Assembly: GCA_022841825.1 (NCBI GenBank)
Contig: JALHQT010000001.1
Coordinates: 62,001 to 126,000 of the forward strand
Length of the DNA: 64,000 nucleotides
DNA from: Anaerolineae bacterium
Lineage (GTDB): Bacteria; Chloroflexota; Anaerolineae; Aggregatilineales; Phototrophicaceae
Reading direction: 5' to 3'
The translations under genes were made by a program, and so were the position numbers. Positions 9,716 to 63,726 of this stretch are shown piece after piece. The notes under the pieces were generated by a model. That model was not told the origin of the DNA. It saw only the letters and a program-made list of their open reading frames with translations, and searched no databases. The first letter of the stretch is position 1, and every line of letters starts with the position of its first letter.

Positions 9716-11139
9716 ATGGCGGGACGGATGACATACTCAGCCTGATTCGTAATGGGCGACACGAGCGTCTCGATTGGCTAGGCGAAGGCGCGGCGCTGGA
9801 GAGCATGGCGACGACCCTGACTGCGCTGGCAAACTGCCAGGGCGGATGGCTGGTCGTTGGGATCGTCGGCAATCAACCTTCGTTGAACGGCGTTCGTGAT
9901 GCGGAGATGGTGATTGACCGAGTCCTGCAAGCTGCGCTGTTGATCGACCCGGCGCTGATTATTCCGCTGCCGCGCGTGATCCGCGCCCAGGAGCGCGCGT
10001 TCGTTGTGGTGCAAATTCCGGCTGGGATGCCGCATGTCTATGCCTATGATGGGCGCTACCTGACACGCGTGGGCGCTGACAATACAGCGTTGAAGCCGCG
10101 CGACCTGCGCCGCCTGATGATGGAACGGGGCGAGGCGAGCTTTGAAATGGAAGTCGTGCGCGGTGCCAGCGGCGATGATATTGATTGGGACAAGGCACGC
10201 GCCTATGTTGCCAGCCTGCCGAGCATCGTCGAGACGAACCCGGAGAAGGCGCTGCTGCGCCGAGGCTGCCTTGTCCTCAACGATGGGCGTGTGCGCCCCA
10301 CGCACGCGGGCATTCTGCTGTTTGGCAAAGATCCACAGCGCTTTGTTCGCGGGGCAGAAGTTCTGGCGGCGCGTTTCAGCGGCGACATGATGAGCGACAG
10401 TTTTGAGCGGCAGGACATCGCCGGCTCACTGCCTGACCAGCTCCGCCGCGTTGAGACGTTCTTACACGAGCGACTGCGTCGTGTCGCACATCTGGGGCGT
10501 TCGATGGCGAGGGACGAGCAGTATGAATATCCGTTTGAAGCGGCGCGCGAATTGGTCGTCAATGCCGTCGCGCATCGCGATTACAGCGTCGGCGGCGATT
10601 CGGTTCGACTGTTGATGTTCAGCGACCGCATGGAGGTTCACAGCCCTGGTGGGCTGGCAGGACCCGTGACCATCGACAATATCAAGGACGAACGATTTTC
10701 ACGCAATCCCGTGATCGTGCAGGTACTGTCTGACATGGGGTTTATCGAACGCCTCGGTTATGGAGTTGATCGCGTCATCGACCTGATGACGCAGCGCGAC
10801 CTGCGGTCGCCAGAATTCGTCGAGACTGCGGGTGGATTCCGCGTGACTCTCTATAACCAGATGCAGACCCCGGTCGATACGAAGGTGATGCCGGAAGCCG
10901 CACCGCTGTCGTTTCACGGAGAGTTTCGGGAGACGGCGATCAATCCGCGTCAGGAGGCGGCGCTGGTCTATCTGCATTCCGGCTCTACGCGCATCACAAA
11001 CAGCGACTTACAGCAGCTTTTTCCCGACGTGCATCCGGAAACGATCCGGCGCGATCTTTCGGATCTGGTCACAAAGAATATCCTGCGTAAGCTGGGGGAA
11101 AAGCGCGGTTCTTATTACGTGTTGCTGGAGAAAGCTTAA
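9712..11139 (+). CDS. AlbA_2 / Schlafen-type ATP-binding regulator-like protein
   Basis: The 475-residue protein starts at a GTG that overlaps the lon stop (GTGA), so it is coupled to lon. Residues about 10-130 form an AlbA_2 (Schlafen-like) domain (ERLDWLGEGAALESMATTLTALANCQGGWLVVGI, RYLTRVGADNTAL). Residues about 260-370 are the ATPase-like HATPase_c_4 part (YPFEAARELVVNAVAHRDYSVGGDSVRLLMFSDRMEVHSPG, GYGVDRVI), and the C-terminus is a winged helix (ITNSDLQQLFPDVHPETIRRDLSDLV). This is the 'putative DNA-binding / RecG-like' family of transcription regulators. Its target is unknown; coupling to lon suggests a stress-related role, which is inference. Confidence 0.8.
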   Translation: MNGGTDDILSLIRNGRHERLDWLGEGAALESMATTLTALANCQGGWLVVGIVGNQPSLNGVRDAEMVIDRVLQAALLIDPALIIPLPRVIRAQERAFVVVQIPAGMPHVYAYDGRYLTRVGADNTALKPRDLRRLMMERGEASFEMEVVRGASGDDIDWDKARAYVASLPSIVETNPEKALLRRGCLVLNDGRVRPTHAGILLFGKDPQRFVRGAEVLAARFSGDMMSDSFERQDIAGSLPDQLRRVETFLHERLRRVAHLGRSMARDEQYEYPFEAARELVVNAVAHRDYSVGGDSVRLLMFSDRMEVHSPGGLAGPVTIDNIKDERFSRNPVIVQVLSDMGFIERLGYGVDRVIDLMTQRDLRSPEFVETAGGFRVTLYNQMQTPVDTKVMPEAAPLSFHGEFRETAINPRQEAALVYLHSGSTRITNSDLQQLFPDVHPETIRRDLSDLVTKNILRKLGEKRGSYYVLLEKA

Positions 11140-11211
11140 CGCGATTCTGGCATCGCGCCGCGATCCTCTGTAAGCTATGGGGCGCTTTGCCGCCCTCAGG
11201 AAGTATGCTGG

Positions 11212-12777
11212 ATGCTGATTCGTCGTACTCTACTCGCTCTTCTCACTGCCTGTCTTTTCGCAGCCTCGGGTTGCGAAAGTTTTGCGCCAGCGCCCACAGC
11301 GACGTTGACGCCGTCTGTGACCCCGACGCTGACCCCGACGTTTACGGCGACCGCTTCGCCATCGCCGACCATGACGCCGACGGATTTGCCAACGCTGACC
11401 CCGACGCCGACGGATACGCCGACAATCACCCCCAGTCCCACGATTGCACCAACACCATCCAATACTCCTGCTCCGGTTGCCGCCTTTATTTATGACGAAT
11501 GGGAAAACATCCCCTTTCCAGAGGAGACAGTAGCTGCTTTGGGGCGTTTGCCATTCATCGCATTCGTTAACCAGAACAACCGCGACAATGTCGGCGATTT
11601 ACGTACCCCGCAGCCGGGTCGGGCGGTTCAGACGCTGTACTACATGTCGCCGGGCGTGACGGGCTTGATCCCGGTGCTGGAAATGGATGCGGCGACAGGA
11701 GATCAGATCTACATTGCGCCATCGGGAGACGTATTCGCCTATTTCCGCCAGGACTCGCCGAGCACTGCCGGCTTGTATATCGTCGATCTGTCGATTCGCT
11801 TCAGTGGGCGCGTCCTGCCCATCGAAAGCCTGGTACAACGCGGCTTCCGCAGTGAGCCAAGCTGGTCACCGGATGGTGCTCGGATGGCGATTGCGCTCGC
11901 AACGGGGTACGACATGGATATCTACGCAGTGGGGCGAGACGGCACCAATCCGACGCCGATTACGCGCAGCGGCGCATACGACTTCTTTCCCGCCTGGTCG
12001 CCGAACGGGCAGTACATTGCCTTCCTTTCTGACCGCGTGACGTGCCCAAGCTGGATTCCTGGCGAGACTGGGACCTGTGACGGTACAGGCGCACTGCCGC
12101 CACGCGGCGGGCAGTTGTTCATCATCGAGGTGGCGACGGGGACGGTCACACAGTTAAGTGACGTCTTCATCACGGAGCCGCCTCGCTGGATTAATGAGCG
12201 GCAGATCGCTTTTTCGAGCGGTCAGCCTGCCCTGGGCGATCCTGGTCGCAGCCTCTGGATCGTCGATGTCTTCGAGCGCGCCCCGCGCGAGTTCCGTTTG
12301 ACGGACGGCAGCGACACGCCGATCAAGCTGTCTGAGGCTTGGTCGCCAGGCGGCAGTCAGGTGCTTTTCCAGGCTGCGGATGGCGAGACAGAAATCGTAC
12401 TGGCGAATGGCGATGGCAGCGTGGTAGGGCGCTTACCTGAATTGCAGTTCTCGCGTTTTGGTATGGCTGCGTCGTGGTCTCCGGATGGCACGCGCCTGGC
12501 AATCGGCGGAGTCGGCGGGCAGTGCCCGTTTGGGGTCGTTGTTCTCAGCAACACGGCAGAGGTGGTTGCCCAGGCAAATCCGCCGCCGAGCATGTGTGAG
12601 CCGGTCTACTCTCCGGACGGGCGTTTCATCGCCTTCGTCGGGGTCAATCCTCGTCTGGATGGTCGGTTGGATGTCTATTTCGCCAATAACAATGGCTTTG
12701 GTGCCCAAAACGTGACGGCGAGCCTGCGCGGGCAAATGGCGCTGATCGGTTGGGTTGGCGTGGCAGGCGGCGGTTAG
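11212..12777 (+). CDS. TolB-like WD40/PD40 beta-propeller lipoprotein
   Basis: A signal peptide with lipobox (LFAASGC) is followed by a Thr/Pro linker of about 60 residues and then by repeats of the PD40 type ([59 protein letters not shown]), giving a six- or seven-bladed propeller. It is 521 residues long. Such propellers act as binding scaffolds outside the cytoplasmic membrane; no partner is identifiable here. The Thr/Pro linker is typical of Chloroflexota surface lipoproteins. Confidence 0.85.
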
Positions 12778-12824
12778 CGCCGTTACGCTTTCAGGGATGC
12801 ATTTATCCGAAAGGAATGGTTTCG

Positions 12825-13571
12825 ATGGTGCAATTTGCCGAAAAAATAGCGGTGGTCACCGGTGCGTCGCGTGGGATTGGGCGGGCAATCGCACTTGAAT
12901 TGGCGCAGGGTGGCGCGACTGTCATCGTCAACTATCAGAAGAACGCGGCGGCGGCTGAGGAGGTTGTCCAGCAGATCATCGCTGCGGGCGGCAGCGCTAG
13001 CTCGTTTGGCGCAGATGTTGGGCTGGAAGAGGGTGCCAACGGTCTCATCAAGTATGCGACTGATACCTACGGCAAGATCGATATTCTGGTCAACAATGCG
13101 GGCACGACGCGCGATAATGTCATCATGCTGATGAGCGCCGACGACTTTGACAGCGTCATGCAGACGAACCTGCGGAGCACATGGCTGTGTTCCAAAGCGG
13201 CGGTGCGCGCGATGATGCGTAAACGGTATGGGCGCATTGTCAATATCACAAGTATCAGCGGGATCATGGGCAACGGCGGGCAGACCAACTACAGCGCCAG
13301 TAAAGCGGGGATCATTGGCTTGACGAAAGCATTGGCACGCGAAGTATCAGCGCGCAACATTACGGTCAACGCGGTCGCGCCTGGGTTCGTCATGACGGAT
13401 CTGACCTCCAGCCTCCCCGAAGATATGCTCAAGAAGCTGAACGAGAACATTCCGCTGGGGCGGTGGGGATCTGTCGAAGATGTCGCGCACGCGACCACGT
13501 TTCTTGCCTCGGATGCGGCGTCGTATATTACCGGGCACATCCTCGTCGTGGACGGCGGCTTGGCGATGTAG
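12825..13571 (+). CDS. fabG: 3-oxoacyl-[acyl-carrier-protein] reductase (SDR family)
   Basis: The 248-residue product has the NADP-binding TGASRGIG near residue 13, NNAG, the catalytic Ser-Tyr-Lys set (ITSISG, YSASKAG) and the typical end YITGHILVVDGGL. It reduces 3-ketoacyl-ACP in fatty acid elongation. I chose the ATG at 12825 because AAGGA lies 9 nt upstream; the ATG at 12816 touches that ribosome site. The HIT gene follows after 12 nt. A broader SDR role is possible, since no other fab gene is in view. Confidence 0.85.
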   Translation: MVQFAEKIAVVTGASRGIGRAIALELAQGGATVIVNYQKNAAAAEEVVQQIIAAGGSASSFGADVGLEEGANGLIKYATDTYGKIDILVNNAGTTRDNVIMLMSADDFDSVMQTNLRSTWLCSKAAVRAMMRKRYGRIVNITSISGIMGNGGQTNYSASKAGIIGLTKALAREVSARNITVNAVAPGFVMTDLTSSLPEDMLKKLNENIPLGRWGSVEDVAHATTFLASDAASYITGHILVVDGGLAM

Positions 13572-46646: not shown

Positions 46647-47129
46647 CTACGAGAAGGAGGCAGCGCGCGCTCGATACTGCACCGCCTCGGCAACATGCTG
46701 CGCCAGGATGACCTCGCTGTCGCCAAGATCGGCAATGGTGCGGCTGAGTTTGAGCACGCGATGGTAGGCGCGGGCGCTCAACTGCATCCGCTTGACGGAT
46801 AGATCGAGCAGTTGACGGGCGTCCGCCGCCAGACTACAGAAGGTCGTCACTTCTCCTGGACCCATATCCGCATTGGCGTAGAGTCCCGGTCGCTCTCGAA
46901 AGCGGTCTGCCTGTCTTGCGCGTGCAGCCATGACGCGGGAGCGCACAGCCGCACTCGATTCGGCGCGTTCGTCGCCGAGTAGCTTGTCGTACTCGACGCG
47001 CGGTACTTCAACATGCAAATCGATGCGGTCAAGCAGCGGTCCGCTGATGCGCGATTGATACCGGATGATCATGCTGGGCGAGCAGGTGCAGGCACGCAGC
47101 GTGTCTCCGTGATAGCCGCACTGGCAGGG
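46647..47129 (-). pseudogene. comM: 3' fragment of comM (yifB), split by element integration
   Basis: Read from 47129 the minus strand gives PCQCGYHGDTLRACTCSPSMIIRYQSRI..., the zinc-finger and AAA segment of ComM, and continues through DRIDLHVEVPRVEY, ESSAAVRSRVMAARARQ and SARAYHRVLKLSRTIADLGDSEVI to the normal end. A TAG precedes the first Pro codon, exactly where full-length ComM would have further coding sequence. The missing N-terminal two thirds should lie beyond the far end of the element. ComM is a helicase that aids branch migration in natural transformation. An internal ATG at 47072 could still express the end, but such a piece lacks the Walker motifs. Confidence 0.92.
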
Positions 47130-48838
47130 CTACTCACAATCGGTGTGATTTCCCCCTTATTGCCAAACTGAAACGCTCCACTCAAGACGCCCTGCATGAT
47201 AAAGGTCCGGTTTGTGGCGTCAAGAACGATAGTATCAACAACGGTACGCACAATTTGCCGTTTGATGGCAAACGGTGCATCCTGCACAATCCCGGTCTTG
47301 ATGGCTCTCTCAGACAACGCGAGCAAGACCTTAGTATGGGCTTCAAATTGCTCGCGGGTCATTGTCTTGCCCTTGAGGCGGGAAAGCTCCTCAGTAAGCA
47401 TTCCCTCGCGTTCTTTGAGTAGTCGCCTCCTTGCAGAGAACTCATGCTCATCAAACGCTCCCGCTTGGTAGGCACGGTACAGCCGTTCGTCCTCAAGTTC
47501 TTTGCCTGCCAATTCCTGCTCGATATAGCGAATTTGCGATTGCAATTGATCGCTTTCTTCGCCAAAGTACTGGCGTTCCAACGCCTCAATCAGAATGTGA
47601 GGCTTCAGAAGAACCGAACAGACCGCTGCCCATACCGCTGGCTCTAAAATTCGGTCAGAGACTTGGCTATTTGTGCAGGCGATTTCCTCTCTGATAACCG
47701 GCATTCTGGTGCTCATAGAACTGCATTTGTATGCTGCCATCACATACGTTTTGCCTTTTCGCCTTGTCGTCTTTTGACTGGCACAGTAGTTATGTCCACA
47801 TACCACACAGCGGACAAGCCCTGTGAGGAGATAGTCTCGCTTTGAGTTACGCCGACTGGTTTGACGGTTCTTATCCAAGGCGTTGTTTGCCAACTCCCAC
47901 AGTTCAGGAGAGACAATGGCAGGCACAGGAACCCGTATCCATTCGCTCTCCGGTCGTTCTACCTTGTGCGTTACCATCCGTGTACCAAGTCCATCTTTCG
48001 TAGGCTTAGGAACTTTCACTTCCATATGCCGATGAGCAATAAATTCGCCCTTATAGAGGGGTTTTCTAATCATGAGGGAGAGAAGTCGAGGCTCCCAATT
48101 CTTCATCTGCTTGGGAGGTGGGTACCGCCCTTCAAGAGTGCGTGCAACCTGACGGACGGGTAATCCATGAATGGCGATCTGCTCGTAAATGTAACGAACG
48201 ACATGAGCTTCATCGTCGCGGATGGCGTAATACGTCATCCGGCGCGACCGGCTGCTTTCTTGCCCCTTATCATCGACAATCTTGTACCCATAGGCAGGTG
48301 TCCGCGCAGTTATCCGTCCATCACGCGCCTTGTGAAGTACTCCCTCCCGATAGCGAGCCTTGGTTAGCTCCATGCCGTCCTGAGCAACTGCCCCCAAAAC
48401 AGCTCGCTCAATACGAGATGAGAACGACTTCCAAAAGACTGTAACCAGTCCGAACTTTTGCATCTCATCGAGAAGATACCCTTGATGCCAGTCAGCATTG
48501 CGACTCAAGCGGTCAAGATGTTCTATGACCACCGCTGACGCCCGCTTGTGGCTTGATTTGTATTCACGGCGCAGGCGAGACAATTCGCGGCGGCGTTCAA
48601 ACTCAAATCCCGTTGCATCATCGGCAAAGACCAGCTCCCAAGGAACTCGGTAGCCATCCCGCGAGGCTGCTTCATGTACATTCTGAATTTGCCGGGGCAA
48701 CCCCGATCTTCCCTCATCAGCCTGATCGCTATCTGAAACGCGAATATAGGCATAGGCGGGCTTACCGTTCGGATCGCCGATAAACCCTCCGACTGCAATC
48801 TGGTCGAACGTCTGCTTGAAACCTTTTGAATCTGCCAT
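47069..48838 (-). CDS. Large serine recombinase (integrase of the element)
   Basis: The start at 48838 has AGAAGGTG 8 nt upstream and gives 589 residues. The resolvase domain (about 26-170) has YAYIRVSDSDQADEG with the nucleophilic Ser in RVS, ALVVIEHLDRLSR-type core (AVVIEHLDRLSRNADW) and the E helix. A recombinase domain follows (about 190-320), then a zinc ribbon (VRCVVCGHNYCASQ ... KCSS ... ACTN, about 350-410), a coiled coil (about 425-500) and a C-terminal part. These enzymes integrate and excise elements by double-strand exchange at short cores. The last about 20 residues (SPASAAITETRCVPAPARPA) are coded by comM DNA in another frame, so they depend on the integration site. Confidence 0.95.
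   Translation of the reverse strand: MADSKGFKQTFDQIAVGGFIGDPNGKPAYAYIRVSDSDQADEGRSGLPRQIQNVHEAASRDGYRVPWELVFADDATGFEFERRRELSRLRREYKSSHKRASAVVIEHLDRLSRNADWHQGYLLDEMQKFGLVTVFWKSFSSRIERAVLGAVAQDGMELTKARYREGVLHKARDGRITARTPAYGYKIVDDKGQESSRSRRMTYYAIRDDEAHVVRYIYEQIAIHGLPVRQVARTLEGRYPPPKQMKNWEPRLLSLMIRKPLYKGEFIAHRHMEVKVPKPTKDGLGTRMVTHKVERPESEWIRVPVPAIVSPELWELANNALDKNRQTSRRNSKRDYLLTGLVRCVVCGHNYCASQKTTRRKGKTYVMAAYKCSSMSTRMPVIREEIACTNSQVSDRILEPAVWAAVCSVLLKPHILIEALERQYFGEESDQLQSQIRYIEQELAGKELEDERLYRAYQAGAFDEHEFSARRRLLKEREGMLTEELSRLKGKTMTREQFEAHTKVLLALSERAIKTGIVQDAPFAIKRQIVRTVVDTIVLDATNRTFIMQGVLSGAFQFGNKGEITPIVSSPASAAITETRCVPAPARPA
47115..47135. other. Element-comM junction (attachment site, left end in this view)
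   Basis: The comM frame becomes homologous to full-length ComM at the CCC codon at 47127-47129 and is closed by TAG at 47130-47132. The recombinase frame runs through this point without a break. The crossover should therefore lie within a few bases of 47115-47135. The other attachment site is outside the window. Confidence 0.75.
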
Positions 48839-48854
48839 GAGCTTTGCACCTTCT

Positions 48855-49064
48855 CTAATCCTTTGACGGTGACGTCTCGTTTGACGCACTACCTTTGCTA
48901 AGGTGCAATTCCTGATCCGATGAAGACACTAAACTTCGCTTTTGAGAATCCGCCCACTCTGAAATCCAGTTCAGCATAAGATTGGCAGCCATCAGAATTG
49001 CAAGTCGATGCGACTTGCGCTCGTCGCTCTCAATCCCAGTATCTTGGGGTCCCGGCTTAGTCAC
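48855..49064 (-). CDS. Small protein of unknown function upstream of the recombinase
   Basis: A GTG start with TGGAGGA 8 nt upstream codes for 69 residues, mostly polar, with one amphipathic helix (SHRLAILMAANLMLNWISEWADSQKRS). It lies between the RelE-like toxin gene and the recombinase gene, all in one direction with short gaps. It could be an antitoxin or a recombination directionality factor, since either would be expected here, but I see no HTH or ribbon-helix-helix pattern. Confidence 0.55.
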   Translation of the reverse strand: MTKPGPQDTGIESDERKSHRLAILMAANLMLNWISEWADSQKRSLVSSSDQELHLSKGSASNETSPSKD

Positions 49065-49683: not shown

Positions 49684-50550
49684 CTATTTGGACGGAAGAC
49701 AGTCATTGATACTGTCACGAAGCTCACGAGCCGCTCGCGCACTTGCATCAGTAAAGGTTTCACGAGAAAGAGGACTTGCAAACATAATGCCACGCGATGA
49801 AGGAACAAAGAACCCCGCTCCGTGCCGATCAACAACATGTGAAACCGTTGATCGCAGGTCACCACCCTGTGCTCCTACTCCAGCTAACAGTACAGGAGCA
49901 TCGCCGATTTGCGCTCTGACGTTGAAGACATCAGCGGGCGAATTGGCACTAAGCACCAAGCCGATGTTTCCGTTTTCGTTCCACACCTCAAGAGACAACC
50001 GCATGATCTCCCGCCACAGGACGTTACCGTTAGCAAGCGGCAGATCAAGAATATCCACGGAACTGGGGTTCGATGTTTTGCAAAGGACAAAGACGCCCTT
50101 CTCTTGGCGCTCGATAAACGGACGCACCGTGTCTGAACCCATCAGCGGATTGACCAATACCGCATGAGCACCGAGGTCATCGAATACTTTCTGCACGTAC
50201 TGCATCACGGTATTGGTAATGTCCGAGATTTTGCCGTCCATGATGACTGGGATTTGCGGATAGGACGTATGAAGGAAGGACATGACGGCTTTCAGTGCGC
50301 GTTCGCCGTCAGCGCCAAAACGCGAAAAGAACGCTGGCTGTACTTTGTAGGCGCAAACATATTCCGCTGTTGCAGCGATGATTTCTTTGCAAAACGCTTC
50401 AACAATAATTCCTTTGTCCTCGGTACGAAATCGCTTGAGAAACGCCTCAGGAATTAACGAGAAGTCAGGATCAAGACCTGCTGCTGCCAGCGAGCCAACA
50501 GCAAGCGACCGCTGGCGCAATCGTTCGGGGAAGGTAGGGCTAACGGACAT
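49684..50550 (-). CDS. pyrF: Orotidine 5'-phosphate decarboxylase, element-borne
   Basis: The ATG at 50550 with AGGGAG upstream gives 288 residues, the size of the longer (type 2) OMP decarboxylases. Catalytic residues are kept: AYKVQPAFFSRFG, MDGKISDITNT (Asp-x-Lys-x-x-Asp), VLVNPLMGSDTVRPFIE, VLCKTSNPSS and AGVGAQGGDL. The enzyme makes UMP from OMP. Its presence in a mobile element, with a THEP1-type NTPase gene directly ahead and no other pyr gene, is unusual. It may supply UMP locally, replace a host gene, or alter pyrimidine pools; these are inferences. Confidence 0.9.
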   Translation of the reverse strand: MSVSPTFPERLRQRSLAVGSLAAAGLDPDFSLIPEAFLKRFRTEDKGIIVEAFCKEIIAATAEYVCAYKVQPAFFSRFGADGERALKAVMSFLHTSYPQIPVIMDGKISDITNTVMQYVQKVFDDLGAHAVLVNPLMGSDTVRPFIERQEKGVFVLCKTSNPSSVDILDLPLANGNVLWREIMRLSLEVWNENGNIGLVLSANSPADVFNVRAQIGDAPVLLAGVGAQGGDLRSTVSHVVDRHGAGFFVPSSRGIMFASPLSRETFTDASARAARELRDSINDCLPSK

Positions 50551-50566
50551 GCAATCTCCCTTCAAA

Positions 50567-51106
50567 CTAAAGCGAAAAGACCTGACAGACTACGCTGGAT
50601 AAGCTGTCTCGATTTTCCTGGTTGACAACCATGAGATTGAGACGTGACAACTGCTTAACCTCGTCTGCAAATGGAACCGACCGTTGGACAATTGCTCCCA
50701 AGATCGCCTGCCGATTGTCGTTCACTAGTTCTGATACAACCGCACAAAATGTATCTGAGGCTATTGACATCGGCGCAATCTCGTCAATGACGATGAGTTG
50801 GTCTTGCGAAGTATGGCGCTCCAAAGACGGAACAATAACATCAGCAATCGTGTCCAAATTGATCCGGTAATGTCCAAACAGGGTCTCACGCGGGAAGCAC
50901 GGGGTAGCGGATTTGAGCGCAAGAATGCCGCGCTTCCCATCGAGCGTAATGCTCTCAAATCCAACTCGTTCGCCAGAGCGACGAATTTCCTGGGTATAGA
51001 AACCTGACAAGGGACGGCGAATGCAAGAAAGTGCCTGCTTAATGGTTGTACTCTTGCCAATACCGGGTACGCCAGTCAGCAAAACGAGCGGCTGTTCAGT
51101 GAGCAT
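50567..51106 (-). CDS. THEP1-like nucleoside-triphosphatase
   Basis: The 179-residue protein matches NTPase_1/THEP1: Walker A LLTGVPGIGKSTTIKQA (residues about 9-25), the family signature GFYTQEIRRSGERVGFESITLDGKRGILA, and Walker B LIVIDEIAPM. THEP1 proteins hydrolyse NTPs slowly and some act on RNA. It lies 16 nt ahead of pyrF in the same operon. Confidence 0.88.
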   Translation of the reverse strand: MLTEQPLVLLTGVPGIGKSTTIKQALSCIRRPLSGFYTQEIRRSGERVGFESITLDGKRGILALKSATPCFPRETLFGHYRINLDTIADVIVPSLERHTSQDQLIVIDEIAPMSIASDTFCAVVSELVNDNRQAILGAIVQRSVPFADEVKQLSRLNLMVVNQENRDSLSSVVCQVFSL

Positions 51107-52000: not shown

Positions 52001-53470
52001 TTATTGGTTCATTACTGCCTCAGCAGCCGTATGCAATTGATACCGCAAATAGGGGTTATCGATACGGGCTACTTTTCCTTCTATCACACTTAAAGCATGG
52101 TTTGCAACCGTGCGTTCACCTCTCCGGGCAGTGACTTCTGCATAGTGCATCTGCGCCTGCGCTTCAACATCCAGCGCTTTCGCCTCGTGAGCAAGTTGTC
52201 CGGCAGCAACAAAACTTGATTGTGCTTCAGGGAGTAAGCCATTGGCTAAAAGATTGCGCCCCTGGCTTACCAGTAAGAGTGCCTGAACCCGTTTGTTCCC
52301 TGTTTCAGCTAGTTCTTCGTTCCAGCTCTCAAGCGAGTAGGCAAGCTTCACATCACGGACAGGGGTGATAATGGACTGAGACGAGAGCAGCATTTGCCAA
52401 TGCGGATCAAACCAGTGATGAAGCGTCAAATACGCTTGCGGATTGCGATGGACATTGATTTGCTGATAAGCTTCAAACGCTTGATCGTAAGCGCCGATGC
52501 CAATGAGGATGTCCATCTTGGTTTCCAAGAAATGATCCTCTTGGCGCGAATACCCAAGCCCGCCTTGAGATTTCGAACCTGCATCCAAGAACAGTTCATA
52601 TTGGGCATATTGTTTGCGAGGTAACCCATAGGCGTGCAATTCGGCAAGTTCGACATACTCGCGTGCCATCTCTGTTTCCCCAAGAGCAACTGCACAGCGT
52701 GCCAGATACTCATACACATAAGGAATACGTTGATGAAAGTGACACGCCTTTAACTCCTCGATAATTGCTTCACCTTTGGCAATACTGCCCCGTGTCACAG
52801 CATGTGCCCAGCCATCAATCCACAAAGTTCTCAGCTTGCTATGAACTGCCAAACGGCTTCCCAGCCATGACAAAGCTTTATCCTGCTTCTTGTTGCCTTC
52901 TGCCTGAATTTTGAGCGCCACATCATGGGTTTCCTCAGACATCCGGCGTGCCTCATCGAGCCGTCCTGTCATCCAGAGGAGATTACTGACATATAGTTGC
53001 AAATAGGCTGCGAGATATGGCTCTTTGGCATATTGCGCATATTGATATGCCCGCTCGTAGATGGCAAGCGCTCTGGACATGTTTCCATCGTCAAAATACT
53101 GTTCTCTCGCGCTAATTGCTAGTTTTAGACATTCGGAAACAGCAGGTGTAGTTGCGCGCTCAAAATCACGGATGAGCGGATAAAGACGAAGGTCATCCAT
53201 ACTGAGGCGAGCCTGACCTTGTGGAACTGTGTGCACGTCAATACCGAGTCTCTGGAAGATAGACGCTGGTGTGCATCGATCTACTTCCGCCAGAGATGCA
53301 ACGATTGCGTACGGCACTTTCGTGACCAATCCACTGTCATTAAGCCAGCGAAAGACCGTTGCGCGACTGAACCCAAAGCGTGCGCAAAACGTATCAACAG
53401 ATACTTCATTTCGCACCAAAATCTCATGCATCAATTCGCCCAATGAGACGTGGTACAAGTTAATCTCCAT
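52001..53470 (-). CDS. HTH plus TPR regulator (RRNPP-like), probable master regulator of the element
   Basis: The 489-residue protein has an N-terminal helix-turn-helix (SVDTFCARFGFSRATVFRWLNDSGL, residues about 24-48) and then about 380 residues of TPR-type helical pairs (ALAIYERAYQYAQYAKEPYLAAYLQLYVSNLLWMTGRLDEARRMSEETHDVAL, YEYLARCAVALGETEMAREYVELAELHA, AKALDVEAQAQMHYAEVTARRGERTVANHAL). This layout is that of RRNPP regulators, whose TPR part binds a peptide or partner and controls conjugation or phage induction. The gene heads a minus-strand operon behind a perfect palindrome that recurs at other element promoters. No peptide gene was found next to it. Autoregulation is likely but inferred. 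Confidence 0.8.
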   Translation of the reverse strand: MEINLYHVSLGELMHEILVRNEVSVDTFCARFGFSRATVFRWLNDSGLVTKVPYAIVASLAEVDRCTPASIFQRLGIDVHTVPQGQARLSMDDLRLYPLIRDFERATTPAVSECLKLAISAREQYFDDGNMSRALAIYERAYQYAQYAKEPYLAAYLQLYVSNLLWMTGRLDEARRMSEETHDVALKIQAEGNKKQDKALSWLGSRLAVHSKLRTLWIDGWAHAVTRGSIAKGEAIIEELKACHFHQRIPYVYEYLARCAVALGETEMAREYVELAELHAYGLPRKQYAQYELFLDAGSKSQGGLGYSRQEDHFLETKMDILIGIGAYDQAFEAYQQINVHRNPQAYLTLHHWFDPHWQMLLSSQSIITPVRDVKLAYSLESWNEELAETGNKRVQALLLVSQGRNLLANGLLPEAQSSFVAAGQLAHEAKALDVEAQAQMHYAEVTARRGERTVANHALSVIEGKVARIDNPYLRYQLHTAAEAVMNQ

Positions 53471-53505: not shown

Positions 53506-53537
53506 AGTATAGAGACTTTGTGTCTCATTAGTGAGAC
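53506..53537 (-). promoter_or_regulatory. Palindromic-operator promoter of the regulator operon
   Basis: On the minus strand GTCTCA-CTAA-TGAGAC (53537-53522) is followed after 10 nt by TATACT (53511-53506), 35 nt ahead of the regulator start. The arms extend to 7 bp (TGTCTCA/TGAGACA). Confidence 0.75.
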
Positions 53538-53599
53538 AACTTGATCACGCTCAAGATACCTGAACCAACATGGACTGAAAGTTATCCCTTGCCCTCACC

Positions 53600-53632
53600 G
53601 TATCACTTTTGAGACAGCAGATAGCGTATGGT
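53600..53632 (+). promoter_or_regulatory. Palindromic-operator promoter of the paralogue-ATPase operon
   Basis: GTATCA-CTTT-TGAGAC (53600-53615), one mismatch from a perfect palindrome, is followed after 11 nt by TATGGT (53627-53632). The first paralogue starts 46 nt later. Confidence 0.68.
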
Positions 53633-53678: not shown

Positions 53679-54116
53679 ATGGGAGACTACAAACATCCGG
53701 TACGGTTTTGGCACCAGAATCACAGCCATCCGGAATACCCCTCGGGACTGATTGACGGAGATCTGGTGGTGAATGACACGGGCCTCATCTTCTACCCCTA
53801 CAAGAAGCGCCTTTCCCCACTGGTCATTCACAATGACAACATTATCAGCACCTACACAGAGGTAACGCGTCCAGAGGCAGCAGGAACCATGATTTATGAC
53901 ATGGCAGAGTTTCTGAGCATAGTAGGGACGTTTGGCATCGTTCAGCCTCGGTGGTCTCACCTATCGATCAAGTTCAAGCTCGTTGACTATGACAAGCTGT
54001 GTGTCGTTGGCTTTGTCGTTCCCTTGGTCACCTTCATTGGACGTGACTGGGCAGAAAAAGTCGAAACGATGATCTGGACAAGCAAACGCAACACACGTAA
54101 CACGCGCATGGGCTAG
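53679..54116 (+). CDS. Tandem small-protein family, copy 1
   Basis: A 145-residue protein of a family I do not recognise. It shares with the next two genes the N-terminal block NHSHPEYPSGLIDGDLVVNDTGLIFYP, then PLVIHNDNIISTY, a hydrophobic middle, and the block LSIKFKLVDYDKLCVVGF ending in a helix (GRDWAEKVETMIW). The pattern of beta strands, a conserved 'H-x-DN-x-x-STY' turn and a C-terminal helix suggests a PH/GRAM-like fold with a membrane-associated insertion, which is inference. In this copy the middle segment is least hydrophobic. A strong ribosome site GAAGGTGAGAGG precedes it. Confidence 0.75.
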   Translation: MGDYKHPVRFWHQNHSHPEYPSGLIDGDLVVNDTGLIFYPYKKRLSPLVIHNDNIISTYTEVTRPEAAGTMIYDMAEFLSIVGTFGIVQPRWSHLSIKFKLVDYDKLCVVGFVVPLVTFIGRDWAEKVETMIWTSKRNTRNTRMG

Positions 54117-54131
54117 CATCAGGAGTTTCGC

Positions 54132-54581
54132 ATGGCTTCAAACACGTACCATGTCTCCCTGTGGAACAAAAACCACAGTCACCCGGAATACCCGGAGGGC
54201 ATCTTCGGCGGGACGCTGACCTTGAATGAGAATGGTCTACTGTTTCAGCCTGAACGCTCGTCGTTGCCGCCACTGGTTGTTCATTGGGATAACCTGACTA
54301 GCACCTACCCCGATGCACAATTGCATCCTTCGCCACTGCTGCACCTTGTCTGGTTTTTCTCTGGCTATCCCGGTCTCGTCACTGTTTTCACCTTTGGGAT
54401 TATCTATCTCTACTTGGGTTCGCTCTCCATCAAGTTCAAGGATGCGCGATACGACAAGATTTGTGTTGTTGAGTTCACCAAGTTCTCCATCATGTGGGCG
54501 TTTGGGAAGAACTGGGCAAACAACCTCGAACAAGAAATGTGGGAACTCAAGCGTAGTCTTCGCACCGAACGCAGAAACTAG
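54132..54581 (+). CDS. Tandem small-protein family, copy 2
   Basis: A 149-residue paralogue of copy 1 (NKNHSHPEYPEGIFGGTLTLNENGLLFQP, PLVVHWDNLTSTY, LSIKFKDARYDKICVVEF, GKNWANNLEQEMWELKRSL). The middle (LLHLVWFFSGYPGLVTVFTFGIIYLYLG) is a clear hydrophobic hairpin that should enter the membrane. AGGAG precedes the ATG; the gap to copy 1 is 15 nt. Confidence 0.75.
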   Translation: MASNTYHVSLWNKNHSHPEYPEGIFGGTLTLNENGLLFQPERSSLPPLVVHWDNLTSTYPDAQLHPSPLLHLVWFFSGYPGLVTVFTFGIIYLYLGSLSIKFKDARYDKICVVEFTKFSIMWAFGKNWANNLEQEMWELKRSLRTERRN

Positions 54582-54606
54582 CAGCTGCTCGTGAAGGGAA
54601 AATCTC

Positions 54607-55053
54607 ATGTCTCAAATCAGTTACGCAGTTACCCTCCGCAACAGTAACCACAGTCATCCGTCGTATCCCGTTGGCATGATCATGGGGACGTTAAGCCTTG
54701 ACGCTAACGGCATGGTGTTTCACCCGCAAAGCGACAAGCTCCAGCCGCTGGTCATTCACTGGCACAACCTCACCAGCACCTATACTCAGCTCATCCTCTA
54801 CCCGATGGAGTGGGTTATCTGGGCATGGTGGTTGTTGGCGTTACCCATCCTTTTGACGTTTGTCACCTTCGGTGTGATAGCTCCCAAGCTGGCGATTGTC
54901 TCGGTCAAGTTCAAGGACGCTGACTTCGACAAGATTTGTGTCGTTGAATTTTGCACTGATTCGGTGATTTCCTTCCTCGGACAATCCTGGGCAACCAACC
55001 TGGAACAAGAAATGTGGGAACTCAAGCGTGCCTACCGCAGGGCAAAGGGATAA
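54607..55053 (+). CDS. Tandem small-protein family, copy 3
   Basis: A 148-residue paralogue (NSNHSHPSYPVGMIMGTLSLDANGMVFHP, PLVIHWHNLTSTY, VSVKFKDADFDKICVVEF, GQSWATNLEQEMWELKRAYRR). The middle WVIWAWWLLALPILLTFVTFGVIAPKLA is strongly hydrophobic. Copies 2 and 3 are closer to each other than to copy 1. The order of copies with similar spacing indicates tandem duplication inside the element. Confidence 0.75.
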   Translation: MSQISYAVTLRNSNHSHPSYPVGMIMGTLSLDANGMVFHPQSDKLQPLVIHWHNLTSTYTQLILYPMEWVIWAWWLLALPILLTFVTFGVIAPKLAIVSVKFKDADFDKICVVEFCTDSVISFLGQSWATNLEQEMWELKRAYRRAKG

Positions 55054-55055
55054 CC

Positions 55056-55481
55056 ATGAGCAACTTAATCCTCCTGCGTGGCAATTTCCTTGCCCCAAAA
55101 GGGGCAATTGCAACCGCCGTTGTCCAATCGTTACCCGGCGTCTTTGAGTACGAAGGGCAAGTGGTGATTGCGGTGACGGATAATGCCTTTTGGATGGTTG
55201 CGCCCAATGAGGAACATCTGATGATCCCATATCGCAACATTCGTTCAGTGCGCCCTGACCAGTTCCCCGGCATCGTCTACCGTGAATATGTTGATGGCGT
55301 GGAAACCCTGGTTGCTCCCAACGATACCGCCGGGGTGACGGTGGAATTTAAGGAGTACGCGGAATTTTACCGTCGCCTCTCCTTCCTCACCTTCTATCCC
55401 AACAAAGCCCACGAATGGGCGCGAACGATTGAAAACGCTGTCTCGAATTTCAATCGTCGTAAGTTTGAGGAGAAGGGGTAG
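55056..55481 (+). CDS. Small protein, probably same structural class as the tandem family
   Basis: The ATG at 55056 (2 nt after the previous stop, AAAGGGA upstream) gives 141 residues: beta-rich N-terminus (GVFEYEGQVVIAVTDNAFWMVAPNEEHLMIPYRNIRSVRP), then GVTVEFKEYAEFYRRLSFLTFYPNKAHEWARTIENAVSNFNRRK. The order 'buried strand - read-out turn - C-terminal helix' is again PH/GRAM-like and resembles bacterial PH domains, although sequence identity with the three copies is low and there is no membrane segment. The function is unknown; it is tightly coupled to the ATPase that follows. Confidence 0.65.
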   Translation: MSNLILLRGNFLAPKGAIATAVVQSLPGVFEYEGQVVIAVTDNAFWMVAPNEEHLMIPYRNIRSVRPDQFPGIVYREYVDGVETLVAPNDTAGVTVEFKEYAEFYRRLSFLTFYPNKAHEWARTIENAVSNFNRRKFEEKG

Positions 55482-55485
55482 AACC

Positions 55486-56994
55486 ATGCCAGTTCTCGGA
55501 AAACACCTGAACCGCTTGTCCGATGGAACATTTGAGGAAACAGACGAGTGGATTGAACTCACGCCAGAAGCTCGTCGGCAAGGGGTTTATGTGCCTGGGA
55601 CAACGGGGGTAGGCAAAACCACCCTCCTTGAGTCCATCATCTACCAAGACATGGTAGCAGGTGACGGCTTGTGCTTTATCGACCCGCATGGCGATGCCGT
55701 CAATAACCTCTTGGAAATCGTTCCAGAACATCGAAAAGAGGATGTTATTCTCTTTGCTCCTGGTGACGATGACCAACTGGAACGCCCGTTAGGGATAAAC
55801 CTCTTGGCATGCAATCGTGATGATGCTCGCCAAGTCCGCCGAGTGACCTCAACTGTCATTGATACCCTGCACAAGCTTTTCTTCTATAGTTGGGGACCCA
55901 GGATGGAAGACCTCTTGAGAAACTCCATCCTGACCCTGATGCAGACACCCATGACGACGTTTCTTGACTTGTGGTTGCTTCTTGCCAGTCCGCTGCATCG
56001 GCACTGGTATACCGACCAAGTTGAAGACAAGTACCTTCAGCAGTTCTGGGAAGTCCAGTTTGCCGGATACACCAAAAGCCCTCGTGACCTGATTGAGCTG
56101 ATTGGGTCTTCCCTCAATAAGATTGGTCGCTTTCTTGCTGATCCGTCGATGCGTAGGGTGGTTGCTCAACCGCAGAACAGTTTTTCGCTCCGTGAGATTA
56201 TGGACAAGCGAAAAATCCTCCTGGTCAATCTCTCCAAAGGGGACTTGGGTGAAGACAATAGTGCGCTTCTGGGTGCTGTCTTGGTCAACCTCATTCTGAT
56301 TGCGGCACTCACCCGGCGTGATACTCCGCCAAGGCTTCGTGTTCCGTTTCATCTCATCGTTGATGAATTCCAAAACTTTGCCACCTCCGACACGTTTTCC
56401 GTACTTCAGAGTGAGGCACGTAAGTATGCCATTGACACGATTGTTGCTCATCAGTACCGGGATCAACTGGATGACCTCAACAAAGGCTCAACCTTAAACG
56501 TTGCCAACTTCATCGTCTTTCGCGTCACCGGGATTGATGCCCAAGAACTAGCAGTTCAATTTGACAATACGCCGCCACCGCCTGAGATGACCTTTCAGCA
56601 CGTCCATGAGCAGGATGCCAATATCTCCTGGCTCTATCACCAGCAACCGGAAATGATGCAGGTTCCCCTGCCTCGACGCCTCTACAGTGATGTTGCTTCA
56701 GAACGCGCCAACCGCTTTGCCTTGGAAGATAACTTCCAGGCAACAACTCGGCTGGTAGTTGATGGGAAACTTTCAGAAGATCCGGTACGAATTGTCCCCT
56801 ACCATGCGCTGCCGCTGCCTGACATTACGCCCCGGTCGCCTGAGAGGGCTGCCGCCATCCGTATCGCCTCGCTTGAGCTTGGGCAACCCAAAGAAGTCGT
56901 TGACGACTTCATCAAAGAACGGATCGGCAACGGGATTACCTTTGACGGTTTCCCTGATGTGGCGCACCGAAATTACGACGAAACAGACGAATAA
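55486..56994 (+). CDS. HerA/TraG-like DNA-pumping ATPase
   Basis: The ATG at 55486 has AGGAGAAGGGG upstream and gives 502 residues. Motifs: Walker A YVPGTTGVGKTTLLESIIYQD (about residues 35-55), LCFIDPHGDAVNNLLEIVPEHRKEDVILFAPGD, Walker B FHLIVDEFQNFAT (about 285-297) and SEARKYAIDTIVAHQYRDQL (sensor/TraG C-terminal pattern). No membrane anchor is seen. Proteins of this type act as coupling or DNA-transport ATPases in conjugative elements. The anchor may be supplied by the small membrane-associated proteins encoded just upstream, which is inference. Confidence 0.88.
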   Translation: MPVLGKHLNRLSDGTFEETDEWIELTPEARRQGVYVPGTTGVGKTTLLESIIYQDMVAGDGLCFIDPHGDAVNNLLEIVPEHRKEDVILFAPGDDDQLERPLGINLLACNRDDARQVRRVTSTVIDTLHKLFFYSWGPRMEDLLRNSILTLMQTPMTTFLDLWLLLASPLHRHWYTDQVEDKYLQQFWEVQFAGYTKSPRDLIELIGSSLNKIGRFLADPSMRRVVAQPQNSFSLREIMDKRKILLVNLSKGDLGEDNSALLGAVLVNLILIAALTRRDTPPRLRVPFHLIVDEFQNFATSDTFSVLQSEARKYAIDTIVAHQYRDQLDDLNKGSTLNVANFIVFRVTGIDAQELAVQFDNTPPPPEMTFQHVHEQDANISWLYHQQPEMMQVPLPRRLYSDVASERANRFALEDNFQATTRLVVDGKLSEDPVRIVPYHALPLPDITPRSPERAAAIRIASLELGQPKEVVDDFIKERIGNGITFDGFPDVAHRNYDETDE

Positions 56995-57004
56995 ACGGGT
57001 GTGC

Positions 57005-57010
57005 TATAGT
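57005..57010 (+). promoter_or_regulatory. -10 box of the replication-relaxation gene
   Basis: TATAGT ends 6 nt before the ATG at 57017, so a transcript from it would be leaderless. No good -35 is seen; the gene may also be read from the ATPase operon. Confidence 0.4.
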
Positions 57011-57016
57011 GCCAGT

Positions 57017-57973
57017 ATGGATACTGCCACGCTCACGTTTACTCAACCAACCGTTATTCGCTTTCCTGAAGTTGAGAGGGCGGACAAATCCATGACCGAT
57101 AAAGCCGACCGGCTCCCCTACTACACCCGTACCGAGAACCCGCCTTCTATCGCCATTACACCGCGCGACAAGGGCATTTTAGAAGCCTTCTATGACCACA
57201 ACGGCGTTCTCGCCGATTACCAACTTGCCAACCTCTTTTTCGGCAGTATGCGGCGGATGAAGGAACGGATGACCCTTCTCTACCAAAACCGCTATGTCAA
57301 CCGCTTCAACCGCAAAGAACGAAACAGCCATGACTACATGGCGTACTTTCTCGATGAATTGGGCGTTGCCTATATCAAACAGCAGTTTGGAGACACTGCC
57401 CGTATTCGCCTCAAAGGTGATCGGGATAGTCGCATTCACCATGATGTCGTCGTCAATGACATCCGGATTGCCATGAGGAAGTCGCTCTCCGCTCTGGGCG
57501 CAACGATTGTTGAAAGTTTCAACTCTCTGGATTTTGACAGTGACCATGATGTCGTCATGGTTCCTGAAGGTGGTCGGAAACCCCAACGACGGGCAGTTGT
57601 GCCGGATGACTTTCTCCATCTCCTCATGCCAAACGGGAAACATCGCAGGTATTTTGTTGAGGCAGAACTTTCACGGAAAGACAATCCCCGGCTGCTTGAG
57701 GAGAAGTTTCGCCCTCAAGCCTACTACGTTCTGGAAAGTCCAGAGTACAAAGCACGGTTCGGAGAAAAAGCGGGCGGAACCTTCCTCTACTTCGTCCACG
57801 ATGAGCCAACCGTTGAACGGATGAAACGAACGGCAGAAAAGCTTGGTGAGGTTGCCCGGATCTTCTACTTCACCACCTATGAAAGGGTCGCACAAGCTGC
57901 CTCGTTCTATACCGATCCCCTCTTTTGGCATGGAACCAAAGAAGTTGAAACCTCACTCATCCAAACTACCTGA
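57017..57973 (+). CDS. Replication-relaxation family protein
   Basis: The 318-residue protein from the ATG at 57017 has an N-terminal winged-helix part (ITPRDKGILEAFYDHNGVLADYQLANLFFGSMRRMKERMTLLYQNRYVNRF) and a nuclease-like core (HHDVVVNDIRIAMRKS, DFLHLLMPNGKHRRYFVEAELSRKDNPRLLEEKFRPQAYYV). This is the Replic_Relax pattern, found next to transfer ATPases in integrative and conjugative elements and plasmids, where it may start replication or act as relaxase. It follows the ATPase by 22 nt. No other relaxase candidate is visible. Confidence 0.85.
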   Translation: MDTATLTFTQPTVIRFPEVERADKSMTDKADRLPYYTRTENPPSIAITPRDKGILEAFYDHNGVLADYQLANLFFGSMRRMKERMTLLYQNRYVNRFNRKERNSHDYMAYFLDELGVAYIKQQFGDTARIRLKGDRDSRIHHDVVVNDIRIAMRKSLSALGATIVESFNSLDFDSDHDVVMVPEGGRKPQRRAVVPDDFLHLLMPNGKHRRYFVEAELSRKDNPRLLEEKFRPQAYYVLESPEYKARFGEKAGGTFLYFVHDEPTVERMKRTAEKLGEVARIFYFTTYERVAQAASFYTDPLFWHGTKEVETSLIQTT

Positions 57974-62064: not shown

Positions 62065-63054
62065 TCAGAGCAGCATTTTTGCAAGCTCCGTAATCGTCGG
62101 AACAAAACCACCATCCAGTCCAAAGCGTTCTCGGCGATACTTCTGCCAGAAGTGAATGACGGAGCCGCCATGAGGCTTCTCGCCACACTGCGCAAAGCAG
62201 CTCCAGAAGTTTTCCTGCCTGTTCACCCCAAAGCTCTCTTTGTGATCATCATGAAACGGGCACAGTCCACGCCCTCGACCATCAAGGTCAACGAAGTGTG
62301 AGACAAACTCCTCAACCGATACGGCATGTTTGATGCGTTCGGAAACCTGCCCGACATCGCCCGCAAGAAGTGCCTTCATCTCCTTAGGTTTCGGTGGAAG
62401 TGGCTCTTTGGGAAGTTGTGCGACAACCGTGAGAATGTGCTTGTGGGATGCTCGTTCAAGATCGACAAAAAGTCCAAGTTGCGCTCGGATTGAGGCAGCA
62501 AGAGGTGTTCCCTCAATCGTGACAAAGCCGTAGCGTTTCTTGTCCTTCTGGTGAATACCAAGAGGCAGCCGGACAAGTGAACCGGGACCCGTCTGCAATT
62601 CGTCCTGGCGAGGATAAATTTCTCGGATTGAGGTGATGCTGTTTTCTTCCAGCAGGTGACGGGCGTACCGTCTGACTGCTCTACCTGGTAGGGGAGAGTC
62701 AAGAAACAACCACAGATGACCGCCTCGGCGTGACTGCTCCAGATAAGCGGGAATCCCTTGGGTTGCCAAACTCAGGGTAAGGGTTTTCAAGTCCTGAAAG
62801 CTCGGTTCGTCGTCGCCATCAAAGCAGAGCCATTTCGCGCGATTTTGCCCATCAAGTGCATATACGCCGATTGTCCGTTGTCCGCGTAAATGCTGCTCAA
62901 TCGTCGCCTCGGTTAACGGGTACTTACGCGCAACATATGTGCCATCGGTAAGCTGCTCGGCAAAGTGTTCCCGTGTGTTGAAAAATGCTTCGGCGTATAT
63001 ATGGGTGAGGTCGGGATCGAGGGCTTCTTTGTGACGTTGCTCTGGTGGGGGCAT
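62065..63054 (-). CDS. Archaeo-eukaryotic-type primase with C-terminal CHC2 zinc finger
   Basis: From the ATG at 63054 the 329-residue product has a primase domain resembling that of TOTE-type elements: HFAEQLTDGTYVARKYPLTEATIEQHLRGQRTIGVYALDGQNRAKWLCFDGDDEP (with the DxDD metal site), QSRRGGHLWLFLDSPLPGRAVRRYARHLL, REIYPRQDELQTGPGSLVRLPLGIHQKDKKRYGFV. A DnaG-type CHC2 finger follows (GLCPFHDDHKESFGVNRQENFWSCFAQCGEKPHGGSVIHFW). Joining these two parts makes a complete primase without a helicase. The -10 TATAGT lies 6 nt before the ATG, so the transcript would be leaderless. Confidence 0.8.
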   Translation of the reverse strand: MPPPEQRHKEALDPDLTHIYAEAFFNTREHFAEQLTDGTYVARKYPLTEATIEQHLRGQRTIGVYALDGQNRAKWLCFDGDDEPSFQDLKTLTLSLATQGIPAYLEQSRRGGHLWLFLDSPLPGRAVRRYARHLLEENSITSIREIYPRQDELQTGPGSLVRLPLGIHQKDKKRYGFVTIEGTPLAASIRAQLGLFVDLERASHKHILTVVAQLPKEPLPPKPKEMKALLAGDVGQVSERIKHAVSVEEFVSHFVDLDGRGRGLCPFHDDHKESFGVNRQENFWSCFAQCGEKPHGGSVIHFWQKYRRERFGLDGGFVPTITELAKMLL

Positions 63055-63060
63055 AGAGCC

Positions 63061-63093
63061 ACTATAGCAAACTGAGTATCCCAATGTTGAGAC
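63061..63093 (-). promoter_or_regulatory. Palindromic-operator promoter of the primase gene
   Basis: On the minus strand GTCTCA-ACAT-TGGGAT (63093-63078), two mismatches from a perfect palindrome, is followed after 11 nt by TATAGT (63066-63061), and the ATG comes 6 nt after that. The arrangement is the same as at the other element promoters. Confidence 0.6.
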
Positions 63094-63113
63094 TGACTGC
63101 GCGTCCTGCCTAC

Positions 63114-63141
63114 TTGACACAATAGGGGAGAGCGATACTAT
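63114..63141 (+). promoter_or_regulatory. Promoter of the DUF3800 gene, probably leaderless
   Basis: TTGACA (63114-63119), a 16-bp spacer and TACTAT (63136-63141). The ATG at 63148 follows after 6 nt. It does not carry the palindrome. Confidence 0.65.
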
Positions 63142-63147
63142 GCCTTC

Positions 63148-63726
63148 ATGACCGCTGCACCCGAAAAGTTATACTGTTATGTTGATGAAACAGGTCTGGA
63201 TGTTCGCAGTACCACATTTTGTGTCTCGGTGATTGTCGCCCAAGCCGACCGTGAGCAAATGGACCAAGAATTGCTTGCTATAGAGAAGGCTTCCGGGAAA
63301 AAAGAGAGAAAATGGCTGGATAGTAACGACGAACGTAGAGTGAGATACATGACCGACGTTCTCACCACACCTCTCTTTCACGGCAAGCTGTACTTTGCTC
63401 TGTATCCACCAACCAAAAACTATCTACCCAAGACGATACTGACGATTGCCCGTGCAATTCTGCGACACGCTCACACTGAAAACTACAAAGCCACGGTCTT
63501 TGTTGACGGCTTGCCCAAGAGCCGAATAGGATATGTCGGCACGGCGTTACGACGCCTCCGGGTTAAAACCGACAAGGTGCGAGGGATACGTAGTGAGACT
63601 GAAAGTGCTCTCATCCGTTTAGCTGACGCGCTCTGTGGCTTTGTCCGTGCAGCGAAAGAGGGGAGAGACGACCTCGGTGAACTTCTTGAGGTTGCTTTGG
63701 AACACAAGGTGATTGTGGAGTTGTAG
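63148..63726 (+). CDS. DUF3800 family protein
   Basis: The 192-residue protein begins YCYVDETGLDVRSTTFCVSVIV, the DUF3800 'Y-x-DExG' strand, and ends with VRGIRSETESALIRLADALCGFVRAAKEG, where the LADALCG segment carries the second acidic residue. DUF3800 proteins have an RNase H-like core and occur often in mobile elements and defence islands; activity is unproven. It is transcribed away from the replication operon. Confidence 0.82.
   Translation: MTAAPEKLYCYVDETGLDVRSTTFCVSVIVAQADREQMDQELLAIEKASGKKERKWLDSNDERRVRYMTDVLTTPLFHGKLYFALYPPTKNYLPKTILTIARAILRHAHTENYKATVFVDGLPKSRIGYVGTALRRLRVKTDKVRGIRSETESALIRLADALCGFVRAAKEGRDDLGELLEVALEHKVIVEL

Follow-up and report, generated by a model that had tools for sequence, protein, structure and literature searches.

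Organization of the Locus

The locus lies in a 64,000-nucleotide stretch of an Anaerolineae bacterium contig (GenBank assembly GCA_022841825.1, JALHQT010000001.1, positions 62,001 to 126,000; the window), which belongs to a 5.9-Mb draft genome that is 95.67% complete. Six genes form a head-to-tail array from 53679 to 57973 on the plus strand: three small paralogs (A, B, and C), a fourth small gene (D), a VirD4/TraG-like ATPase gene, and a Replic_Relax gene, separated by 15 (A–B), 25 (B–C), 2 (C–D), 4 (D–ATPase), and 22 nt (ATPase–Replic_Relax). The features of the array and its surroundings are as follows.

47069..48889, minus strand: serine recombinase at the end of the element, adjoining the C-terminal piece of comM
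52001..53470, minus strand: divergent HTH-TPR regulator candidate, all Pfam matches below cut-off
53521..53538, unstranded: palindrome TGTCTCATTAGTGAGACA, candidate operator of the operon, between the HTH-TPR gene and A
53599..53616, unstranded: second operator-like site, two mismatches
53679..54116, plus strand: gene A, predicted PH-like family, weakly hydrophobic insert (BLASTP, hydropathy)
54132..54581, plus strand: gene B, predicted PH-like family, hydrophobic insert at residues ~66–92 (BLASTP, predicted model)
54607..55053, plus strand: gene C, predicted PH-like family, hydrophobic insert (BLASTP, hydropathy)
55056..55481, plus strand: gene D, separate small protein family, no transmembrane (TM) segment called (best hydropathy 1.25)
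55486..56994, plus strand: VirD4/TraG-like ATPase (coupling-protein nucleotide-binding domain) lacking a transmembrane domain (TMD)
57017..57973, plus strand: Replic_Relax (PF13814) protein, MOBC-type relaxase candidate
62065..63120, minus strand: primase of the element (AEP-TOTE and DnaG zinc ribbon)

A, B, and C are paralogs of 36–50% identity (BLASTP: A–B 39%, E 5e-35; A–C 36%, E 3e-33; B–C 50%, E 1e-53), and B as a query of its own genome retrieves A, B, and C only. Non-synonymous divergence is below synonymous divergence in each of the three pairs (pN/pS 0.42/0.71, 0.43/0.71, and 0.34/0.66). These results agree with the original prediction, made from the letters of the window, of three tandem related small genes that are tightly packed and run directly into an ATPase gene. 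The hydrophobic middles differ among the three proteins, as had also been proposed, with mean hydropathies of 0.23 (A), 1.23 (B), and 1.48 (C) for 31-residue inserts whose limits were set by eye. Sequence motifs were said to recur throughout; NHSHPxYPxG and PLV(I/V)HxxNxxSTY are present in all three proteins, whereas two later blocks are strong in B and C only, the versions in A reading LSIKFKLVDYDKLCVVGF and WAEKVETMIWTSKR. The family was described as unrecognized, with a match to a known family named as the outcome that would count against the prediction, and searches of Pfam and NCBIfam returned no family at E ≤ 1 for any of A, B, C, or D. Two matches of C, to DrmMI (PADLOC, 11.8 bits) and to a PHROG entry (E 0.054), were attributed to chance.

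The description of D as a fourth relative of A–C was dropped as a sequence claim: the BLASTP comparison of C with D gave E 1.1, and hhalign of the A/B/C profile against D gave a probability of 0.3% (E 0.21). The best cross-match between the two sets of families pairs C with the D protein of a relative, G111 (24% over 50 residues, E 0.077), and a single-sequence model of D reached a pLDDT of 35.4, too low for a fold. By sequence, D thus constitutes a gene family of its own without detectable kinship to A–C. Its homologs in the relatives G057 (32%) and G111 (28%) each adjoin an A/B/C-type gene; the hydropathy scan scores one TM segment in the G057 protein (residues 32–50) and none in the D protein of the window.

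The pattern TGTCTCA-N4-TGAGACA, allowing at most two mismatches, occurs at four sites in 124 kb (49403, 53521, 53599, and 58970), all within the 10 kb around the operon; the pattern was derived from the 53521 site, and hence three of the four are independent. Simulated sequences (n = 20) contained on average 0.5 such sites and never more than one. A similar-looking gene occupies the place of the divergent regulator in two relatives; inspection by eye of the corresponding gaps in G057 and G111 revealed no palindrome of this type.

Predicted Fold of A, B, and C

A model of B was built from the three-sequence alignment (mean pLDDT 77.6, pTM 0.69; the five models spanned 62.4 to 77.6). It contains seven strands (residues 4–12, 23–31, 35–40, 48–51, 55–64, 94–104, and 109–119) and a C-terminal helix (122–148), a layout that agrees with PH/PTB domains, with a low-confidence hydrophobic insert between strands 5 and 6 (pLDDT <50 at residues 68–72, 74–76, and 78–89). 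Foldseek gave no PDB match below E 0.001 for this model (best 2.8e-3, the ICAP1 PTB domain), and the fold assignment is therefore based on VIA-align Z scores, computed over Foldseek's top 1000, and on the uniformity of the match list. The CCM2 PTB domain scored Z 13.0 (rmsd 2.5, 103 residues), the Sin1 PH domain Z 12.4, and the AKT PH domain Z 11.1, and proteins named PH, PTB, or FERM account for most of the best 50 VIA-align rows among those 1000. A search of BFVD with the same model returned one match below 0.001 (Q331Z0). Bacterial PH families are absent among the best 50 VIA-align matches, an absence that does not count against kinship with them.

The model, which is of B, thus has the seven-stranded, PH-like barrel closed by a C-terminal helix. 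A PH/GRAM-like fold had been put forward for checking by structure prediction, and the model of B, at Z 11–13, backs it for A–C. The likeness to PH/PTB-fold domains lies in this predicted fold; B differs from them in its hydrophobic insert between strands 5 and 6, and A–C have no sequence-family match. We infer that the insert may form a re-entrant loop, because 31 residues seem too few for two complete membrane helices. The strand 1–2 loop of canonical PH domains sits at the ligand edge and apart from the strand 5–6 loop; the NHSHPxYPxG motif of A–C is located in the strand 1–2 loop and might consequently face the cytosol.

A Coupling Protein-like ATPase and a Relaxase Candidate

The ATPase matches the Pfam family TrwB_AAD_bind at E 2.4e-6 (27.1 bits, cut-off 20.5) and T4SS-DNA_transf at its cut-off (20.1 bits), with every NCBIfam match below cut-off, and aligns by sequence with TrwB structures at E 7e-6, from which it is judged to carry the nucleotide-binding domain of a type IV coupling protein (T4CP; VirD4/TrwB/TraG). 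A hydropathy scan at a threshold of 1.6 found no N-terminal TM segment, and the only stretch to reach this value is internal (residues 258–276), bearing out the earlier description of a TraG-like ATPase without a membrane anchor. A match to mads_8 (51.5 bits) was read as a shared ATPase fold.

The adjoining protein matches PF13814 (Replic_Relax) at E 1e-8 (35.9 bits, cut-off 25.3) and also phrog_9381, annotated as replication initiation by nicking. In all seven aligned Replic_Relax sequences, H142-D143, P196-D197, E215, and K230 are invariant. Invariant residues of this kind are expected of a PD-(D/E)XK-type enzyme. MOBC relaxases are described as related to PD-(D/E)XK nucleases (PMC12857230), and PF13814 is listed as the MobC relaxase superfamily in a survey of streptococcal mobilizable elements (PMC5357655). 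The protein thus has both the domain and the residues of a candidate MOBC relaxase, with a presumed catalytic role.

Apparent Exchange of Membrane Partners within an ATPase Clade

The distribution of these genes was placed on a midpoint-rooted tree of 51 ATPase sequences (55 were found and four short rows dropped), in which the ATPase of the window is one of nine short enzymes (490–521 aa as called), all apparently anchorless, that form a clade (support 0.993). Longer relatives can have N-terminal TM segments, as in the 936-aa enzyme of the neighboring element; others have none in the stretch examined. The ATPases of the window, G057, and G111 form a subclade (0.996), with which those of loci L004 and L005 group (0.958).

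In six of the nine, a two-TM protein of a family denoted Y/Z is encoded within 2 kb of the ATPase (four loci in G067 and G092, plus L004 and L005), on the same strand as the ATPase in G067 and G092 and divergently in L004 and L005; a hydropathy scan of these six loci scored at least two TM segments in three and one in the others. The remaining three (the window, G057, and G111, all of the bacterial family of the window) have A/B/C-type and D genes in the place of Y/Z. Y and Z are related to one another (hhalign E 3e-7), and hhalign found no kinship of Y/Z to A–C or D (E 0.12 or worse). A single replacement of the membrane partner would be the simplest reading of this pattern. Members of the Y/Z TM-protein family near short coupling-protein-like ATPases lie at L004:7136–7864 (no Pfam match), L005:6385–7344, L051:7352–9098, and L052:5139–6011.

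The strict form of the partner exchange is weakened because the scan, at its threshold of 1.6, calls no TM segment in the A/B/C-type protein of G111 (insert mean 0.44). Membrane anchoring by this protein and by A (insert mean 0.23) is doubtful, since their inserts are hardly hydrophobic or have no TM segment called. In G111, moreover, the ATPase and relaxase genes are on one strand and the A/B/C-type and D genes on the other. An automatic count of TM-encoding neighbors on the same strand gave 7/9 for the clade, 10/44 for other ATPases, and 32/154 for control genes, which agrees in direction with the partner exchange but is weak evidence because its rows are non-independent, a wrong gene instead of the divergent TM gene is counted for L004, and D itself is counted for L049. 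Eight of the nine clade loci have a relaxase-type gene at most three open reading frames from the ATPase; in L005, a large ATP-binding gene (9968–13327, STAND-like by eye) lies between the two.

G057 and G111 each have a single A/B/C-type gene, recognized by position and weak similarity (E 2e-4 and 3e-3 in BLASTP with C; E 6e-4 and 1e-5 in hhalign). A three-row A/B/C profile found this genome alone among 200 relatives and missed the G057 and G111 genes, and a five-row profile found this genome and one marginal match among 396 genomes of the class (G382, E 0.0097), which was taken as chance. A D profile likewise found this genome alone in the class sample, which evidently lacks G057 and G111, whose sequences are in the profiles. 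The ATPase was detected at E ≤ 1e-80 in 3 of 98 genomes of the bacterial family and in two from the class sample of 396, and D in 3 of the 200 relatives (which we take to include all 98 family genomes), the same three family genomes as the ATPase. Homologs that in most genomes occur without the ATPase had been named as evidence against the docking proposal, and all three D genes found are within 2 kb of this ATPase. Among viral contigs there was no relative of A–C or of Y and one distant ATPase; plasmids gave no match for B or the Replic_Relax protein, and ATPase matches in 69 records, none with one place covering 80% of the query.

A Putative Integrative Element in comM

The array lies within a split host gene, comM (Mg chelatase-like), of which the C-terminal piece (Mg_chelatase_C) is at 46647–47072 and the N-terminal piece, by reading, at ~103739–104863 on the window scale. 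The halves are ~56.7 kb apart, a different serine recombinase stands at each end, and ~42 codons seem to be missing relative to the comM copy in L054; in that genome (G092), a further comM piece is found beside a short ATPase gene of the clade of the window. Exact att sites were not found, the two junction regions having only a 9-base word in common. Gene names in the interval come mostly from reading translations, some from profile tests, and on this basis it contains two sets of primase, VirD4-like ATPase, and Replic_Relax genes together with defence-like cargo.

A self-transmissible integrative and conjugative element (ICE) with a type IV secretion system would encode a VirB4-type ATPase. 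PF19044 had no match in the genome of the window (95.67% complete) in a search that was positive in 7 of 14 genomes as a control, and among eight other genomes it matched in G092 alone, with none in G057, G111, or G067. PF12846 matched the genome of the window below cut-off only, and a VirB4-like query from G092 found nothing there, which by itself shows little. Since no VirB4 was found, the element is probably mobilizable through a helper.

A Split Coupling Protein as the Favored Explanation

We hypothesize, with a probability of roughly one in two, that a T4CP without a TMD is docked at the membrane by subunits encoded as genes of their own, namely A, B, and C and probably D. In this scheme, the PH-fold domains of A–C would touch the inner membrane through their hydrophobic strand 5–6 loops, A–D would hold a soluble ATPase hexamer at the membrane, and the ATPase would take DNA processed by the neighboring MOBC-type relaxase and pump it out of the cell, on behalf of an element made integrative by its serine recombinase. 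The original prediction of a hetero-oligomeric membrane docking platform for the ATPase is retained in part: docking fits a described class of coupling proteins that have no TMD and pair with small membrane proteins (PMC7434980), as well as the exchange of partners within the clade. The kinship of D to A–C that it included is not supported. The hetero-oligomer would follow solely from there being three paralogs in the window, two relatives having one A/B/C-type gene each.

Comparable systems have been described. Interaction with small membrane proteins is described for some TMD-less T4CPs, TraJ and TraI of pIP501 being the example, in a review that gives the mode of oligomerization of such T4CPs as unknown (PMC7434980), and TraI has been proposed as the anchor of TraJ (PMC12857230, PMC13037476). 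The pIP501 pair resembles the locus in joining a TMD-less VirD4-like ATPase to a small membrane protein as its proposed anchor (PMC7434980, PMC12857230, PMC13037476), a likeness at the level of description; it differs in that the proposed anchor of the window would comprise three copies of a PH-fold family together with D, and no VirB4 was detected for the element. CloDF13 similarly combines a T4CP (MobB) and a MOBC-type relaxase (MobC) in a mobilizable element, but MobB has its own TM domain, described as essential for mobilization (PMC7431656), and the ATPase of the window has none. By analogy, a functional likeness to a MOBC-type mobilizable element with its coupling protein divided between a soluble motor and PH-fold proteins at the membrane seems fairly clear.

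The lack of a PF19044 match in the genomes of the window, G057, G111, and G067 (G092 alone of the eight others matching) also accords with an ATPase that, together with membrane partners, moves double-stranded DNA without any VirB4-type channel, in the manner of TraB/Spd or TdtA. Pock formation by Streptomyces plasmids is reported to need three to six highly diverse spd genes, SpdB2 interacting with TraB (PMC4170104), and TdtA of Thermus is described as an ATPase that forms hexamers, is partly recovered with membranes, and is encoded by an ICE-like element (PMC5365140). TraB/Spd and the locus have in common that multiple, diverse membrane-associated genes accompany a DNA translocase gene; TraB, however, is FtsK-like and transfers double-stranded DNA, whereas the ATPase here matches TrwB/TraG-type models, with no FtsK model among the matches listed, and adjoins a relaxase-like gene that points to a nicked, single-stranded route. 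As a VirB4 gene could also be missed in a genome of 95.67% completeness, we consider such stand-alone translocation unlikely.

A–D could instead serve accessory functions (exclusion or immunity, envelope sensing, or regulation together with the divergent HTH-TPR protein), for which the regulator candidate and palindromes upstream of A, the opposite strands of the A/B/C-type and D genes and the ATPase gene in G111, and a fast divergence and triplication that would suit an exclusion or arms-race role can all be adduced. The 2-nt C–D and 4-nt D–ATPase junctions of the window and the replacement of Y/Z genes by A/B/C-type and D genes beside the same ATPase clade speak against this, and it seems to us quite unlikely. 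That the Replic_Relax protein starts replication by nicking while the ATPase and membrane proteins segregate the excised element is highly improbable: the phrog_9381 match and ParA-like genes (by reading) in related elements would fit, but the element has primase and AAA genes of its own and PF13814 is classed with MobC relaxases (PMC5357655).

Within the split coupling protein that we favor, a more specific architecture can be imagined, in which A, B, and C form a hetero-oligomeric ring with two copies of each, matching the hexamer, their re-entrant loops in the membrane and NHSHPxYPxG clamping the ATPase, and no VirB4 channel is needed; we regard this elaboration as improbable. The arrangement appears to be of a known kind, an anchorless ATPase with docking proteins, built from an unexpected protein fold. 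The PH fold is known mainly from eukaryotic membrane recruitment, and our search of the literature collection used found no paper joining pleckstrin homology, conjugative, coupling protein, and type IV secretion; if the hypothesis is true, it would bring this fold into DNA transfer. One ATPase clade, moreover, appears to have exchanged its membrane partner for an unrelated one, such that the anchor of a coupling protein could be studied as a replaceable module.

Other Genes of the Contig

The region 49684–51106, located between the recombinase and regulator genes and within the comM-splitting interval, encodes an orotidine-phosphate decarboxylase and an NTPase_1 (PF03266) protein. The segment at 63148–72303 (window scale) contains genes that are defence-like by reading (SIR2-like, STAND-like ATPase, and type I restriction-like). 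Two further pairs of VirD4-like ATPase and Replic_Relax genes are found on the same contig at 89356–92985 and 112458–114951 (window scale); one of the two ATPases has N-terminal TM segments, and the other (at 112458) is short, at 519 aa, and follows two small TM genes.
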